Source: Aliamphritea spongicola
GTDB taxonomy: Bacteria > Pseudomonadota > Gammaproteobacteria > Pseudomonadales > Balneatricaceae
NCBI GenBank assembly: GCA_024347235.1
Contig: AP025283.1
Location: 310,001-374,000, forward strand
Reading direction: 5' to 3'
DNA length: 64,000 bases
A program made the translations under genes and the position numbers. Below the pieces are notes generated by a model, which saw nothing but the letters and a program-made list of their open reading frames with translations, did not search any database and was not told where the DNA came from. How positions within the stretch are numbered: position 1 is the stretch's first letter; every line of letters begins with the position of its first letter. Positions 23,739 through 33,496 of the stretch are shown piece after piece.

Positions 23739-24168
23739 TCCGGACAGTGATCAGGGCGGCGACTGCGCTGCCGAACTCCCTGGAAAGTGTTCCTTTTATG
23801 CGGTTTCAGGCAATAAGTTGTCTGATTGCGACGCATACACAAAGTAAGTAGTAAAGCCCGGTGAATTGCTTGTATTGATTCTGCTGCGACTTTAGGCTGA
23901 TTTGCAGCATGTAGTGAGTATTTCAATCGAAATAGTTCTCTGCTATGCCCTTGAGGTAAAGGAAAGACGCAGTGCAATACAACAGGAAATAAACTGGCAG
24001 ATCCCGTTACAGGCGGATTCTGAGGTGCCGCCATCCGGATTATCATCCGGCTGGTAATCAGATCACTCCGATACAGGTTCAGGTAGGTTAAAGCACGCTC
24101 AAGGTACTGATTTTTAGAGGGAAAAAGTCAGGTATTTAACCCCGTCGTGAGTCTGACAGGAGAGAAGA
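23739..24168. other. 430-bp gap before the NIT-type chemoreceptor
   Basis: No protein-like frame. It holds the promoter region of the chemoreceptor; no clear sigma-28 box (TAAA-N15-GCCGATAA) was found. AGGAGAG at 24158-24164 is the ribosome-binding site of the next gene. Confidence 0.5.
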
Positions 24169-26168
24169 ATGTTTTTATTCGTAATCTGCCGATACGTGTA
24201 AAGATGACGCTGCTGGTGCTGATACCACTGCTGCTGAGCATCAGTTACATTGCACGGGATCTGTACGGCAACTATGAGATCTACAAGGTTTTAGAGCAGG
24301 CTGAAGAAGTTTCAGAAGTCGCTTTTGTAGGTGCTCAGCTGGTACATGAGTTACAGAAAGAACGTGGTCTGACCACGGTGCACGTAGATACCAAGGGCAA
24401 AACAGACACAGCACCGATACGGGCTCAACGACAGTCAGTTGATAACAAAATTACCGAGTTTCAGGCCATTCTTAAGGCGGATGAAGCATCCATTATCAGC
24501 AACGGCCTGAAATCCAAAACCGATCTTGTAATTGAACAGCTTGCGACCCTTGGGGAGTTCCGCAGCCGGGTAGACCAGGTGGCGCAGGTGAAGATGAAGC
24601 TCAAAGAGTCTTTCACCTTCTACAACGATTTGAACCGTTCCCTGTTGGGTATTACCGCAGCTCTTTCCAGCTCTGCTAATGACACCGAGATCAGCCGTTT
24701 AGCCTCCGCGTATTATTACCTGCTGCAATATAAAGAAGCCGGTGGTCAGGAACGGGCGATGCTGGCAATTACCTTCGGTAAAGATAAGTTCAAGCCGTCT
24801 TCTATCCGTAAGAGTTTTAATCAGAATCTGGTGGCGCAGGAGTTCTACCTGTCGACCTTCAAAGAGTTTGCACCTGAGTCAGACATCACATTACTCAATG
24901 ACACCCTGGTTGGCCCCAGTGTCGATAAAGTGGCTGAGCTGCGGGAGCTGGCAACCTATCAGAGCCGCAGCTTTGGGGTAGAACCGAAGGTCTGGGTGGA
25001 TGCATCCACTGACCGGATTAACCTGCTGTATGATTTTGAACAGCAGATTGAAGCCAACCTGCATGCCGCAATTGAGACTAAAATTGATGCTCAGGTTGCC
25101 TGGCTGAGCACTCTGGTTGGTATTGCCGCGGTGGCGCTGTTGCTGACCATCCTGCTGAGTGTTTATCTGGTGCGGCTGATCATTAAGCAGATCAACCTGA
25201 TTTCTTTTGCAGTGAACCGTATCAGTCAGCATTCCGATCTGACCCATGTGTGTGAAGCAATCAGCACCGATGAGCTGGGCGGTCTGGCCAATGAATTTAA
25301 CCAGATGACCTCACACCTGAGCCAGCTGACCCGCAGTGTCAGCGGCGCGACTGAGCAGATTACCAGTGCCGTGGGTGGCATGCAGTCGATCTCTACCCAG
25401 GTGGATGACCGGGTCAGTGAAGGTATGCGCGAAACCGACAGCATTGCTGTATCGGTGCAGGAAATGTCTTCTTCGGTGATGGAAGTGTCTGAAAACTGTA
25501 ATCAGGCGGCGGAGCAGTCTAAGCATGCGGTTGAAGCGGCCAACGAAGGCAGCACCCGGGTTAATGACGCCAATCAGGCCATGGGTGATCTGAACGAGCA
25601 TATTAACCGCGCGGTAACCGTGATCAACCAGGTGGCGGACGACAGCAGCGAAATCGGCGGCATTCTGGATGTGATTAAGAGCATTGCCCAGCAGACAAAC
25701 CTGCTGGCGCTGAATGCGGCCATCGAGGCTGCCCGGGCAGGCGAACAGGGCCGCGGCTTTGCGGTTGTAGCCGATGAGGTTCGCAACCTGGCACAGAAGA
25801 CACAGCAGTCCACTGAGCAGATTGAAACCATGATCGAACAGCTGCAAAGCGGTAGTACGGAAGCGGTTAAGACCATGGAGCAGAGCCATCAGCGCACCAC
25901 TGCCACCATGGAAACGGTGACGTCGATTCAGGATCAGCTGGAAAATATCATTAAGCAGGTAACCCTGGTGAATGATATGAACCTGCAGAACGCCGCTGCC
26001 ACTGAGGAGCAGAGTGCGACGGTGAATGAGATCAACCGTAACATCGGTATGATTCAGGAGCAGTACAACAATACCAACGCTTCTGTCAGTGATCTGCGTG
26101 AGACTACTGAATCCATGCACAGCCTGTCTGATCAGCTGAGCGGTGAAGTGAGTCGCTTTAAGATCTGA
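24169..26168 (+). CDS. Methyl-accepting chemotaxis protein with NIT-type sensor domain (one frame break at the start)
   Basis: A chemoreceptor of about 666 residues. After the first transmembrane segment ([17 protein letters not shown]) comes a long periplasmic domain with [16 protein letters not shown], characteristic of nitrate/nitrite-sensing (NIT) domains. Then come a second transmembrane segment near residues 315-338, HAMP, and the signalling hairpin with [20 protein letters not shown] and [25 protein letters not shown] lies 5 bases before ATG 24169, but that frame closes at once; adding one T to T5 at 24172-24176 gives [13 protein letters not shown]. The alternative intact start is GTG 24147, without a good ribosome-binding site. 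Nitrate sensing is inferred from the domain only. Confidence 0.92.
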
Positions 26169-26246: not shown

Positions 26247-28810
26247 CTAGTTGAGCGCAACCAGTCCTTCATTGTCGATCCGGAAATTACGGCTGTGCAG
26301 CGGTGTATACACGGTGCCACTGCGCAACAGAATGATGGTCAGTTCCGGCATCAGATGGCGAATACCTTCCAGCATTTCCAACTGCTCATCCGGCGTTTTG
26401 TGTTCCAGAGCATCATGCAGAATGAGGATTTTGGGCCGTTTCACCAGGCAGCGTAACAGCTGGATATTCAGCTTGGCCGCTAGCGGGAGACGTTCGCCCC
26501 GGATACCCACCGGAGAAAGACCGATGGTGATCAGCACCAGTGATTCTGCGTCGTTGGCAATCAGGGCCTGTTCGACAATTTCCACCAGTTCTCCATGATT
26601 ACCGTTATGATTCGGTGATACTTCAATGCCCCAGACAAGGTTTTCCATGACACTCAGTCTGGCGTTAATCCGGTTTTCGTTCAGCGGTTCAAGCTCAGTG
26701 AGAATCTTTTGTTTATCCTGCTCGATCAACCAGTGACGCAGTTCGACTATCTGTTTCTGCAGATCTGCGTGGATATGTTCTTCACCGGAGTCGACAATCC
26801 GTACCTTCAGGGCCATTTCCAGCAGGAACTCACAGGCCGGCAGATAATCCGGACGGCCGATGCACTGGGTCAGCTGATCACGGATGCACTCGCTGTCATA
26901 CTGGCTGAGGTGCGGCTTCAGCTGGCCCTCAGGCCCCACTTCGCACAGCTCCTCAATGATGTTCTTGGAGACTTGCTCACCGGCATCCCGCAGGGGTTTA
27001 TACAGGTTTTGCTGCTGCAGAATGCGGACAAACTCATCATTGCCGGTCAGGGCCCGGATCAGCGGTACCTCATCTTCTGACTTGATCAGACCAAAGCCGA
27101 TATTTTCCAGCACGGACAGGTGCGGGTGGTAGCTGTTGATGTCGAAGCGCTTCACATAGTGGTCCAGCTGCTGGCTGTGCCACTGATGGGTCAGGTCGTT
27201 ACGGGTCTCAATAAACTTTTCTTCGATGACTGTCGGCATATCCGTCGGGTCGAAATAGTCTTTCAGGCCCAGCTCAAATACCATCCGCCGGGAACCGATG
27301 GCCACCATCATTTCCTGCAGCCAGTTGCGCATTTCCCGCCAGTTTTCCACCCCGGCCATGTCGAAGTCTGTCCAGATATCGTGGGCGCTGGCCGGGCTGT
27401 TACCGGAGGCTTTTGCTTCTTCGATTTCAGTTAAACGTGCCGGTGTCAGGTCGGCGGTGTCTTCTTCAGGCGGTTTGCGGCGCAGACCATAGTTAATGTT
27501 CTGCAAGATAGTACCGTCAAACAGAATCGGTTCAGGTCCCGCATAGCTGACATTGCGGGTCAGGCGCTCGGTGGATATCTGGTTAATTTCCTGATCGCCA
27601 TAGCTGATATAACCTGCTGCGGGACGGTCAGTACGCATCAGGCTTTGCGCCATTTTACGCAGCAAAAACGGACTGTTGGAGTGAATGTTAACCAGTTCGC
27701 CCTGTTTGACATCCAGGCTGATGTTCTGGGCAATGTATTCACCCCGGTCATTTGTCAGATACAGGCTGTTCAGGCTGACGTCGCCGTTGAGGCTCTGCGG
27801 TTCGTCTTCGATAGCCGGTATCGGCTGAATAATATCCGGTGGATCAAAGTTTTCCAGAATCTGTTCGTAGCGAATCTTGGCATCCTGATACTGCTGGTAG
27901 TACGCCAGAAGCTCTTCCAGGGGGCGACAAGGTCTTTGTAGGCGGTCAGGGCTGCTACCAGTGCGCCCATGCTCAGATGGCCCTGAATGACCAGCACGCC
28001 GCCAACCGCATAAAACATAATCGGTGGCAGCTGGTTGAGGAAGTTATTGATGAACTTCATCAGGAATTTTTGCTGAAAAATATTCAACCGGATGGTGAAC
28101 AGCTTGCCCAGAATCTGGGAAAAATGTGCCAGATGATAGTTGTGGGTGCCGTAAATCCGGACTTCACGGTTGCCGTCGACACTCTCACCGATCTGGCTGG
28201 CCAGTACCCGTACCTGCCGCACCCGTTCTTTTTCAGGGCGTTCAGTTTTTCTGCATGCGGGGAATGATGTAGGCCTGCAGCGGGATCATTGAAATCGCCA
28301 CGATGCCAAGAATCGGGTCCTGAACAAACATAAAGGTCAGGATGGTAATCATGGTGCCGCCCTGGAACAGGGGCTGGGCCAGACTGTCGCCGATAAAGCC
28401 GGCCAGCGGTTCCGTTTCAGAGGTGACAGTGGCGATTATTTCACCCTGAGATACCCGCTGGAACTGACCGGGAGGAAAACGCAGAACCCGCTCCAGCAGC
28501 AGGTAGCGCAGCCGGCGTACCATGCGTTCACCGATCACGCCCTTATAGGTGTTGATGCGCATTTTAAATGCACCGCTGATCAGTACGGTCAGCAGAAGCA
28601 TGCCGCTGAGCAGCAGAAGGAATTCGATTGGCTGCCATTCCATGCCCAGAAAGCTACTGGTTTCGGCGCCATCGATTGCCCCGTTAATGATGGTTTTGGG
28701 CAGTTCAGGGACAGATAGAGGATCGGGAAAAATAACAGGGTCAGCAGCAGTACACGTATCTGATCACGCAAACTGTAGCGGTAAATAAACTGAGTTATAC
28801 GACGATCCAT
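26247..28810 (-). CDS. ABC exporter-like protein with degenerate, enlarged nucleotide-binding domain (four frame breaks)
   Basis: After repair (bases lost near 28706, 28246-28250, 28229-28233 and 27915-27916) it is one 855-residue protein. Residues 1-330 form a type I exporter membrane domain with about six segments (MERYLL-type GERMVRRLRYLLLERVL, then QGEIIATVTSETEPLAGFIGD). The NBD is recognisable by order but lacks catalytic residues. Walker A is replaced by NIHSNSPFLLRKM (about 375), the signature by GIRGERLPLA (about 770), Walker B by KILILHDALE (about 795), and the H-loop His by LLRSG. About 300 extra residues sit between the Q-loop region and the signature position, with three similar motifs: TILQNINYG, LSVLENIGFG, LSVMENLVWG. 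Transport by ATP hydrolysis looks unlikely unless it pairs with an active NBD. Flanked by chemoreceptor genes. Confidence 0.8.
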
Positions 28811-29024: not shown

Positions 29025-30734
29025 TCAGTTGATACAGAAGCGCTGGCTGTTGGTCTGTAGCTGATTGGCCAGTACGGCGAGTTCTTCACTGGCGTGGCTG
29101 GTTTCCCGGGTGGATGAGGAGGTTTCTTCCGCAACCCGCCGGATGTTGGTGATATTGCGGCTGATTTCTTCAGTGACTGCGCTCTGTTCTTCGGCAGCAC
29201 TGGATATCTGAATATTGAAACTGCTGATTTCCCGGACGGCGCTGGCAATGCTGTTCAGGGCCTGGCTGGCGGCATCGCTCTGGGTCAGCACTTCGTTGCT
29301 TTGCTGCTGGCCAGCTTCCATGGCTGCCATGGCAGCCTCAGAACCCTGTTGCAGGTCTTCGATCAGGGTGCGGATCTGGTCGGTCAGGTTCTGGGTGCGG
29401 GAAGCCAGTTCGCGCACTTCATCTGCTACCACCGCAAAGCCTCTGCCGGCTTCCCCGGCCCGGGCGGCTTCAATGGCGGCATTTAACGCCAACAGGTTGG
29501 TCTGCGCTGCCACCGACTGAATGACATCCAGCGCGGCTGAAATGCCCTGGGAGCTCTGGTTGACGCCGGAGATGATGCTGGCGGTCTGGTTAACCTGCTG
29601 TTCCAGAGCCTGCATACCGCTGAGGTTATCGCTGACCACCCGGATCCCTTCATTGACCGCATTGGATGCGGTTTCAGCAGTCTGGCTGGCGTTTTCTGTT
29701 ACATTGGCAACATCGCTGGCGGCACTGGCCAGCTGATTGATGGCGGTGGCGATCTGGTCGGTTTCATTGTATTGCTCGCTGACAGCGGCATTGCTCTGGG
29801 TTGAAATGGCTGACAGTTCTTCGGAAGCCGACGCCAGCTGACCGGATGCCATACAGACTTCTTCGATACTGTTACGCATAATACTGAACAGGTTATCCAG
29901 ATCCCGGGACAGGTGCCCCAGTTCAGTATTGCCGGAAAGGTTAATACGGCGGGTCAGATCCAGATTGGTGGCGACATCATCAATGGTATTACGTACATGG
30001 TTGATACTGCGGATGATCTGGCGGCCAATCAGATAGCTGATCAGTAAAATCAGCAGGGTAGCAATGCTGCCAATGACAAGCACCAGGGTAATGGCCTGTT
30101 CCTCATGGGCTTCAGCCCGCTTGCCGGCGGCTTCTGTAAAAGCGCTCAGATCCAGCAATACCGTTTCAACTTTCTGATTGAGAATATCTTCTTCCTGTTC
30201 CACTTTACGGCTTAGCTGATCGGCTTCGGACAGGTTACCTGCGGCCAGTACCGTAAATACCTCATGGGCATGTTGTTCGTAGGCGCTGTGCATCTGAGCG
30301 ATCTGGGCAAATTCGGCTTCAAACTGCTTTAGCTTTGCAAGGTCGCCCGGATTGGTGGCGTGTTCTTCTGCCAGGAGCACGAAGCTTTGTGCCTGTTTCA
30401 GGGTGCTGTCTACTGTCTGGCTGAGGCTGTCAAAGTGCTGGCGGGCTTTTTCAAAACCGGTTCGGGCATAGCTGTTGTCCTCCAGGGTCATCAGGGTGCC
30501 GTAGTGCAGGCTGCGTTCGAACTCAACGGACTGTTCCAGTTGTTTGAGGGCCGTTTCGGTGACCATGGAGGTCATTGGGATATCTTCTTCGGCAACGGCA
30601 ACCAGCTCGTCCCGAATATTCAACAGCTGAACAGTGGTGCTGCTGATAACTGTAAGCAGAGCAATGATTGCCAGCGATGACAGGGTGATGAGCTGGTGTC
30701 TGATAGAGATGTTTTTCAGCAGGCGTTGCAGCAT
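29025..30734 (-). CDS. Methyl-accepting chemotaxis protein
   Basis: An intact 569-residue transducer: transmembrane segment near residues 13-34, a helical periplasmic domain of about 165 residues ([28 protein letters not shown], four-helix-bundle type), second transmembrane segment near 210-230 ([19 protein letters not shown]), HAMP, then the signalling domain with [20 protein letters not shown] and [18 protein letters not shown]. The C-terminus has no CheR/CheB-tethering pentapeptide. ATG 30734. The ligand is unknown. Confidence 0.93.
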
Positions 30735-31951: not shown

Positions 31952-33496
31952 ATGAATTCAAATAATAATATACGCCCATCCCGTAACAGTCGCCGACGCC
32001 GTCAGGTTCGACAGGAAGCTGCCCCTCAGCCGGCTGCTGCATATATTCAGCGCAATATTCCCCATTACAATTTGCTGAGTGATGAGGGGCTGGAAGCCAT
32101 TGAGCATCATGCGGAAATTATCCTGCATGAGTTCGGTATTCAGTTCCGGGATGATCCGGAAACGGTGCGGTTATTTGTGGAAGCCGGTGCTGAAGCGAAA
32201 GGGGATATTGTGCATTTTCCTCCGGGGCTGATCCGCAAGCTGATTGCCACCGCACCCGCTGAGTTTACCCAGCACGCCCGTAATCCGGCCCGTACTGTGC
32301 AGATCGGCGGGAATAATACGGTGCTGGTGCCGGCCTACGGCTCGCCATTTGTGTATGACCTGGAGAAAGGCCGTCGCTACGGATCACTGGAGGATTTTCA
32401 GAACCTGGTGAAGCTGGCCTATATGAACCCGTATCTGCATCACAGCGGCGGTACGATTTGTGAGCCGGTGGATGTGCCAGTGAATAAGCGTCATCTTGAT
32501 ATGCTTTACAGCCATATGCGTTATTCAGATAAAGCGTATCTTGGTTCAATTACCTCGCCGGAACGGGCGGCAGATTCAATAGAGATGTCAAAGATTCTGT
32601 TTGGCGATGATTTTGTGGATAACAACTGTGTGGTGATGGGCAATATTAACGCCACTTCACCACTGGTGTTTGACGGCGATGTTACCCGGGTAATCCGTAC
32701 CTATGCCGCTGCCGGGCAGGGTATGGTGATATGTCCGTTTGTGCTGGGCGGGGCGATGGGGCCGGTAACACCGGCGGGTGCGGTTGCTCAGGCGCATGCA
32801 GAGTCGCTGATTGGCGTCGCCCTGACTCAGATTGTCCGTCCGGGAGCGCCGGTGATTTACGGTAACTTCCTGACCACCATGTCATTACGTAACGGTTCGC
32901 CGACCTTTGGTCAGCCGGAAGCCAGCCTGGCGTATTTTGCCATTGGTCAGCTGGCCCGCCGGGCGGGTTTACCTTTGCGTTGCGGCGGTTCGTTTACGTC
33001 ATCCAAGGTATCTGATTTTCAGGCCGGGCAGGAAAGTGCGGATGCACTGATGCCAGCGCTGCTCTCCGGTGCCAACTTTGTGCTGCATTCGGCAGGCTGG
33101 CTGGAAGGTGGCCTGACCATGGGCTTTGAGAAATTTATGCTGGATGCCAACCGGCTGGGCATGATGGCGAAGATGATGGGCGGTATGGCGCTGGATGAGA
33201 ATGCCTTTGCGCTGGATTCGTACCGTCAGCGTACCGAGCATAATGAACACTTCCTGGGTACTGCCCATACCATGGCCAACTATACGGATGTGTTTTATGA
33301 GTCGAATACGGCAGATGCCAATTCTTTTGAACAGTGGGAAATAGAAGGCAGTAAAACCGCCGAGCAGCGTGCCCATGAGCTGTTTAAGAAGCAACTGAGC
33401 GAATATCAGGCACCGGAGATTGATCCGGCGGTGGATGAGGCGTTGCAGGCTTATATTGCTACCAAGAAAGAGTCGATGCCGGACCGCTGGTATTGA
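31952..33496 (+). CDS. Trimethylamine methyltransferase-family protein, non-pyrrolysine (MttB/MtgB superfamily)
   Basis: An intact 514-residue COG5598-type protein. A basic leader (RNSRRRRQVRQ) is followed by YIQRNIPHYNLLSDEGL, then the barrel with ILHEFGIQFRDDPE, HHSGGTICEPVDVP, LGGAMGPVTPAGAVAQAHAE and LRCGGSFTSSKVSDFQAGQES. There is no in-frame amber codon, so it is not the pyrrolysine trimethylamine enzyme. Relatives without pyrrolysine include glycine-betaine:corrinoid methyltransferase MtgB, which needs a corrinoid protein and a second methyltransferase; neither is in this window. It lies between a LysR gene and purine salvage. A quaternary amine substrate is plausible given the sarcosine/serine genes elsewhere, but not shown. 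Confidence 0.88.
   Translation: MNSNNNIRPSRNSRRRRQVRQEAAPQPAAAYIQRNIPHYNLLSDEGLEAIEHHAEIILHEFGIQFRDDPETVRLFVEAGAEAKGDIVHFPPGLIRKLIATAPAEFTQHARNPARTVQIGGNNTVLVPAYGSPFVYDLEKGRRYGSLEDFQNLVKLAYMNPYLHHSGGTICEPVDVPVNKRHLDMLYSHMRYSDKAYLGSITSPERAADSIEMSKILFGDDFVDNNCVVMGNINATSPLVFDGDVTRVIRTYAAAGQGMVICPFVLGGAMGPVTPAGAVAQAHAESLIGVALTQIVRPGAPVIYGNFLTTMSLRNGSPTFGQPEASLAYFAIGQLARRAGLPLRCGGSFTSSKVSDFQAGQESADALMPALLSGANFVLHSAGWLEGGLTMGFEKFMLDANRLGMMAKMMGGMALDENAFALDSYRQRTEHNEHFLGTAHTMANYTDVFYESNTADANSFEQWEIEGSKTAEQRAHELFKKQLSEYQAPEIDPAVDEALQAYIATKKESMPDRWY

Follow-up and report, generated by a model that had tools for sequence, protein, structure and literature searches.

The locus described here raises the question of what is done by a protein that has the architecture of an ABC exporter and has lost the residues with which an exporter hydrolyzes ATP. 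The initial annotation of the window, the 64,000-nucleotide stretch of the Aliamphritea spongicola genome which was analysed as a whole, described one such gene from the sequence alone and proposed that its product is a maintained pseudo-ATPase membrane protein, or half of a heterodimer. The peptides of the nucleotide-binding domain (NBD) on which that proposal was based were recovered in the window exactly as quoted and are listed with the other features of the gene in Table 1. The gene stands alone between two genes which, by sequence, resemble chemoreceptors (MCP; window 24147-26168 and 29025-30734).

Table 1. Location of the exporter-like gene and its parts in the window.
Feature	Position	Strand	Basis or remark
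Whole gene, predicted ATPase-dead exporter-like protein	26247..28810	-	open reading frames, comparison with L002; three or more frame changes
Exporter-type transmembrane domain (L002 residues 1-307)	27893..28810	-	Pfam ABC_membrane; boundaries from L002
Degenerate NBD, N-terminal part (Walker A and Q-loop positions)	27486..27892	-	motif alignment
Walker A position NIHSNSPFLLRKM, without GKS/T	27651..27689	-	motif alignment
Peptide LFDGTILQNINYG	27486..27524	-	located as quoted
323-residue stretch with the ~293-residue insert	26517..27485	-	spacing versus ordinary exporters; mostly helical in the AF2 model
First ENxxxG segment TILQNINYG (post-Q-loop segment as in ordinary NBDs)	27486..27512	-	located in translation
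Second repeat unit, end LSVLENIGFG (27090-27119)	27090..27236	-	end exact; 49-residue length from profile match
Third repeat unit, end LSVMENLVWG (26628-26657)	26628..26774	-	end exact; 49-residue length from profile match
Degenerate NBD, C-terminal part: signature position GERLPLAAK, Walker B ILILHD, no H-loop His	26250..26516	-	
Signature-position peptide GIRGERLPLA	26478..26507	-	located as quoted
Peptide KRPKILILHDALE	26403..26441	-	located as quoted

The reading frame of the window copy differs from that of its intact congener L002 by the changes counted in Table 1, which lie near 28.62-28.74, 28.23-28.26 and 27.91-27.92 kb; the initial annotation had spoken of four homopolymers. L002 codes for 855 amino acids from the Met within an open frame of 872 codons, and the congeneric copies are unbroken, with open frames of 858-873 codons and identities to a 472-residue query of 94% (G001), 89% (G012), 86% (G002) and 63% (G004). 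Because the congeners are intact, the window assembly is 78% complete and other genes of the same genome (G000), a glycosyltransferase and an importer SBP, are also broken, the frame changes are most simply read as assembly errors. The gene is present as a single copy in G000, G001, G002 and G012. Among L002-L004, dN/dS is 0.015-0.067 in the transmembrane domain (TMD), the NBD parts and the insert, 1 of the 12 values not being computable; between the window and L002 it is 0.01-0.06 for the NBD parts and insert, and between L002 and the more distant L005 it is 0.06-0.15, a distance at which synonymous sites approach saturation. By these ratios the gene is under purifying selection in the genus and, with no homolog of intact motifs in 131 aligned rows, its description as a maintained pseudo-ATPase rather than a decaying gene holds.

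Loss of the catalytic motifs is a property of the family. In the window the Walker A position reads SNSPFLLRK, not the GxxGxGKS/T of an ABC ATPase, the signature position reads LPLAA, not LSGGQ, and HD, P and S are found at the positions of the Walker B Asp and catalytic Glu, the Q-loop Gln and the H-loop His, respectively, as the initial annotation had recorded for Walker A, the signature, the Walker B Asp-Glu and the H-loop His. In the homolog alignment which that annotation recommended, the losses are common to the family and a complete motif set is found in none of the 131 rows, the best of which have four of the seven motifs, compared with seven of seven in all 5 control exporters; the rows score 0 in 52 cases, 1 in 44, 2 in 23, 3 in 7 and 4 in 5. 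A homolog that retains Walker A/B and LSGGQ, named beforehand as the counter-evidence, was sought in these rows and not found, LSGGQ occurring in no aligned family row and being approached most closely by LTGGQ (L122) and LSAGQ (L042). Residue by residue, 23 of the 131 rows retain the Walker A Lys, 20 the adjoining Ser/Thr, 8 the Q-loop Gln, 6 the H-loop His, 51 the Walker B Asp, 22 the catalytic Glu and 102 the D-loop Asp position. The corresponding counts in the 66 rows of a subset of <72% identity are Lys 16, Ser/Thr 7, Gln 7, Asp 22, Glu 17 and His 5.

These rows comprise 15 members from the relatives of the window genome, 81 proteins from 80 named loci, 4 gammaproteobacterial proteins, 30 loci from a search with a model of the insert only, and the window. 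The 81 proteins were taken as the best-matching ones for a degenerate query among at least 354 relatives, a choice biased toward degenerate loci which the insert-only search of 398 genomes, the source of the 30 loci, was intended to offset. Included in the count are four truncated contigs (L031, L032, L090, L102), numerous Ruegeria entries that hardly differ from one another, and L118, which duplicates L050; L113, which a pattern filter placed outside it, also has dead motifs. When 57 relatives were searched, 19 matched and the 12 with >400 residues matched were counted. The seven dropped proteins (G017, G022, G023, G032, G034, G040 and G049) matched over 59-82 residues, and the four of them examined carry canonical motifs. 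Decay is uneven over the family, the window clade, in which the Walker A Lys and glycines are all lost, being among the most decayed in a quick tree (no bootstrap, long outgroup branches, root unused). The least decayed members (e.g. L042, L048, L099 and L108) read GPxGGGKD ... LSxxQRQK ... LILNEATSALD, while L131-L133 retain GKS and VVDEG, without signature, Gln or His; going by these residues, ATP binding may persist in L131-L133.

The remainder of the protein is that of an exporter. Pfam ABC_membrane (PF00664) matches two N-terminal pieces of the window gene, one with E 3e-16 and the other with 2e-5, below the cut-off, and it matches 5 of 5 full-length relatives examined, which bears out the exporter-type membrane domain noted initially. 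A six-helix exporter membrane domain is indicated by PF00664 together with the long-helix pattern, as in exporters, of the full-length AlphaFold2 (AF2) model of L048 (pLDDT 84.8, weak at residues 161-175 and 290-296). Pfam ABC_tran is detected only below its cut-off, over residues 7-83 of the 472-residue ORF. The NBD fold of a type IV ABC exporter is nevertheless present in the predicted model of a 555-residue part of the window protein (46 rows; pLDDT 85.6, pTM 0.78), whose NBD core matches PCAT1 and TM287 with Z 23.5 over 228-236 residues at an rmsd of 2.2-2.6; with the chains of PCAT1, TM287/288 and TAP taken together, the values are Z 22-23.5, rmsd 2.2-2.7 and 222-236 residues. These PDB matches concern the NBD core, the models having folded the insert together with the rest. 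As modelled, the protein has one NBD core plus a mostly helical insert. Three NBD-like lobes, for which a structure prediction had been suggested, are rejected on this model. The protein thus resembles the homodimeric type IV exporters MsbA and PCAT1 in PF00664 and in the predicted fold of its NBD core (Z 23.5, ~230 residues), and it differs from them in belonging to a dead family without a complete motif set in 131 rows and in carrying the ~293-residue insert. Judged from its sequence, it would be an ABC-exporter-fold member by descent that very probably does not hydrolyze ATP.

The gain of about 300 residues within the NBD was confirmed by spacing: the distance from the Q-loop region to the signature position is 340 residues in L002 and 344 in L042 versus 47-48 in three ordinary exporters, giving an insert of ~293 residues. 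The three similar segments reported in this region proved to be two repeats and one look-alike. The ENxxxG segments are spaced by 132 and 154 residues, in agreement with the initial description, and the unit ending in the second matches the unit ending in the third over 49 columns (hhalign probability 98.9, E 2.1e-17), a value not reached by any of 60 column-permuted controls. The stretches following these two units also match (92.7%, above all 60 controls). The stretch after the first segment matches those after the other two weakly (15 and 24%), yet above all 60 controls each; this match falls in a later helix and not in the ENxxxG segment, so that TILQNINYG resembles the other two segments through the short motif. 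In the models the second and third units have the same layout of short strand, ENxxFG helix and short strand, the elements in the window model being E254-256/H268-273/E275-277 and E408-410/H422-427/E429-431, respectively, and likewise in L048. By profile comparison the second and third units are true repeats, and the insert may have grown from copies of the Q-loop/helical-subdomain region.

Many members carry a further domain. A C-terminal cNMP-like domain is detected in 70 of 130 relatives with a local profile, built from five members, and Pfam agrees in 5 of 5 cases examined, four of these being among the five from which the profile was built. The window clade is without this domain; at some loci a separate cNMP-binding protein is encoded next door. 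In one protein (L108:8001-11615), cNMP and GGDEF domains are fused behind the dead NBD, bringing second-messenger binding and making together.

Comparison among genomes links the gene to a surface-glycan locus situated elsewhere in the genome, a link which is new here and lies beyond what can be read from the window. In the 57 relatives a GT28-type gene (A5) and the exporter-like gene are both present in 12 and both absent from 45 (Fisher p 1.4e-12, kinship ignored), and an importer SBP is found in the same 12 of 57. Of the 17 genomes in the window's genus, 5 carry both genes and 12 neither one. In 398 Pseudomonadota, 27 have both, 4 the insert only, 4 the glycosyltransferase only (at E 1e-60) and 363 neither. 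The four insert-only genomes (G444, G548, G556 and G674) are of one genus with divergent proteins, and the four glycosyltransferase-only genomes have weaker matches of at most 320 bits; these exceptions, 4 of 31 in each direction, count against the link. Members L142-L145 are divergent, come from one genus, align poorly in the membrane domain and include two long branches (L142, L144); a matching glycosyltransferase was not found for them at E 1e-60. As a control, the window gene at 31952-33496, which we take to be MttB-like (trimethylamine methyltransferase family), was compared in the same 57 relatives, giving 6 with both, 6 and 7 with one only and 38 with neither (p 0.02). Kinship can, on the evidence of this control, explain part of the co-occurrence signal, not the exact match. 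The window genome contains five matches to the control gene, this copy among them.

The genes of the glycan locus are partly seen beside the family members themselves. GT28-type genes lie in the flank of 13 of the 80 best-matching named loci, GT1-type genes in 12 and an importer SBP in 11, the GT28-type gene being absent from the other 67 flanks. The fullest locus, L048, has two GT28-type and two GT1-type genes, a histidine phosphatase, a cNMP-binding protein, a protein with a sub-threshold DUF2334 match and an Opp-type ATPase; L050 adds a SAM methyltransferase, and a similar set accompanies the family member on an Azospirillum plasmid. In G001 the glycan locus lies at 4.443-4.462 Mb, apart from the exporter-like gene at 0.346 Mb, and includes two UDP-sugar dehydrogenases, an MscS-type channel, two GT28, two GT1, a histidine phosphatase, an Opp-type ATPase, an SBP and two permeases. 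A MurJ-like flippase gene adjoins this locus (L156, L157: 4.434-4.465 Mb). In the window genome the glycan genes lie at ~4.21-4.22 Mb and are frame-broken, ~1.1 Mb from the exporter-like gene if the contig is circular. Given this distance, and the 67 of 80 flanks without GT28, the glycan link of the window gene rests on co-inheritance, by which the exporter-like protein is likely to be linked to a surface-glycan system.

A member in Sinorhizobium meliloti offers a connection to a described polysaccharide. In the pSymB member the insert is recognised by its profile (E 3e-102), and an alignment of 856 columns gives 30% identity to L002; its motifs are dead, reading GGTSGGGEA, GKRLTSGQRQK and FNQPL at the motif positions. 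It was matched in Rm41 (NC_018701, 875651-878362) and in strain 1021 (NC_003078.1, 841723-844435); the strain 1021 copy has 2713 bases versus 2712 in Rm41 and may be frame-shifted or misread. Its surroundings hold a similar glycan set together with an adenylate/guanylate cyclase, a polysaccharide lyase, a cNMP protein and an Opp-type importer, a histidine phosphatase not being listed among these neighbours. About 18 locus tags before it stand genes for a sulfotransferase, then an aminotransferase and a PIG-L deacetylase, which fit the descriptions of smb21249, smb21248 and smb21247 in the part of PMC5498481 consulted. Because of this spacing the member is placed, by gene order, near smb21267, in or beside smb21252-smb21271. 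According to the portion of PMC10128002 consulted, the phazolicin-protecting polysaccharide (PPP) requires nine genes of the stretch smb21252-smb21271, and cAMP reportedly regulates genes that may be involved in it; 7 of the 9 genes are induced under Myxococcus predation (PMC10315480, in part). The PPP cluster thus resembles the loci described here in having a family member, matched to the cluster of PMC10128002 by gene order and not by name, and in having glycosyltransferases and an importer as at other loci; it differs in that the gene of the window organism is unlinked from its glycan locus. In the excerpts of open-licence PMC literature searched for smb21265-smb21270, smb21265 alone was found.

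How such a protein works can be considered against these findings. We tentatively favour, at somewhat below even confidence, a pseudo-ATPase of exporter fold that is a dedicated inner-membrane subunit of a surface-glycan ('PPP-type') system and acts as a non-hydrolytic translocator or gate, with the dead NBD as its scaffold and regulator; transport or gating as such, rather than pure scaffolding, is about an even call. Two copies would form an exporter-shaped dimer, the membrane domain of which would be the route or gate for a glycan, a lipid-linked precursor or a trimmed product, with a gradient or the assembly reaction, instead of ATP, driving the movement. The dead NBD and its ~300-residue helical insert may provide a docking and gating platform, which would be addressed by the fused cyclic-nucleotide-binding domain in about half of the relatives and by a separate neighbour protein in some. 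Independence from ATP hydrolysis is favoured by analogy, because SbmA has an exporter-type TMD that works without an NBD (PMC13316013, as excerpted) and a D-loop mutant of TAP became a nucleotide-gated facilitator (PMC7756269, as excerpted). SbmA/BacA (SLiPT), derived from an ABC ancestor according to the same excerpt of PMC13316013, is like the proposed protein in an exporter-type membrane domain that would not need ATP, and unlike it in having no NBD, whereas the family keeps a dead NBD, with the NBD fold in the predicted model, and an insert under selection. A family of exporters degenerate in all copies examined would be a test case, alongside SbmA, for an ABC membrane domain without its motor; no paper on an ATPase-dead exporter family with an insert was found in the portion of open-licence PMC literature searched. 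The MurJ-like gene adjoining the G001 locus makes another translocator available, which counts against the translocator or gate. It is possible, and more doubtful, that the family as a whole has exchanged the ATP stroke for second-messenger control, gating glycan export or assembly that is not driven by ATP, the dead NBD having grown the duplicated helical insert and the cNMP (once GGDEF) domains.

The main rival is a transport-free scaffold or regulator in which nothing is moved, the fold anchoring glycosyltransferases or the Opp-type importer and signalling through the NBD and cNMP domain. This is rather unlikely, even though it accommodates the family-wide loss of catalytic motifs, the glycosyltransferase and importer genes that lie near in some loci and are co-inherited, the cNMP-like domain in 70 of 130 relatives and the GGDEF domain in L108. 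The membrane part is, as read from the alignment, under tight constraint, because 45 columns are invariant in the first 304 residues of 45 diverse members versus 11 in the rest; this speaks against a scaffold, although the TMD of an ordinary exporter is also better conserved. That the TMD is more strongly conserved than the NBD was dropped as evidence, the ordinary exporter pair L025/L026 being alike in this respect (identity 0.93 and 0.87).

A nucleotide-gated facilitator, in which ATP would be bound, not hydrolyzed, and would gate the membrane domain, is improbable. It would suit those members that keep GxxGxGK and LSxxQRQK (L042, L048, L099 and L108) or GKS and DE (L131-L133), as well as the widely kept D-loop Asp position (102/131); it does not suit the window clade, devoid of the Walker A Lys and glycines, or a family with the Lys in only 23 of 131 rows.

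The other proposal of the initial annotation, half of a heterodimer, fared worse: a pairing with an active exporter, in the manner of TM287/288 or TAP, is very unlikely. Degenerate sites are typical of heterodimeric exporters, as the part of PMC7756269 consulted states, and degenerate motifs in an exporter NBD are what the family shares with TAP, TM287/288 and TmrAB, in each of which one site is degenerate. In the family, however, all copies examined are degenerate, and a search for an adjacent active partner (blastp E 1e-20, 70% coverage) found no full-length ordinary exporter in the flanks, of up to 8 kb, of the 80 best-matching loci, so that a heterodimer with an adjacent partner was rejected; the single copy in four genomes of the genus argues in the same direction. 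Tandem or near-tandem pairs of family members do occur in G027 (L006, L020) and L029 (4270-6834, 8001-10565), and there the partners are themselves dead. These pairs might form a heterodimer of two dead halves.

A pseudogene or sequencing artefact, suggested by the frame-shifted window copy and its 78% complete assembly, has practically no probability as the source of the motif loss, which is ruled out as a sequencing product by intact congeners carrying the same residues and by the low dN/dS, and which is family-wide.

The family is not rare, the insert being carried by 31 of the 398 sampled Pseudomonadota genomes, the window's included, and by S. meliloti pSymB. The protein, annotated as an ordinary ABC transporter and named 'ABC transporter transmembrane domain-containing protein' in the plasmid records, is a candidate membrane component of an uncharacterised surface polysaccharide. 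One member, L061, is from a MAG labelled Anaerolineae and is closest to proteobacterial members, perhaps through a binning error.
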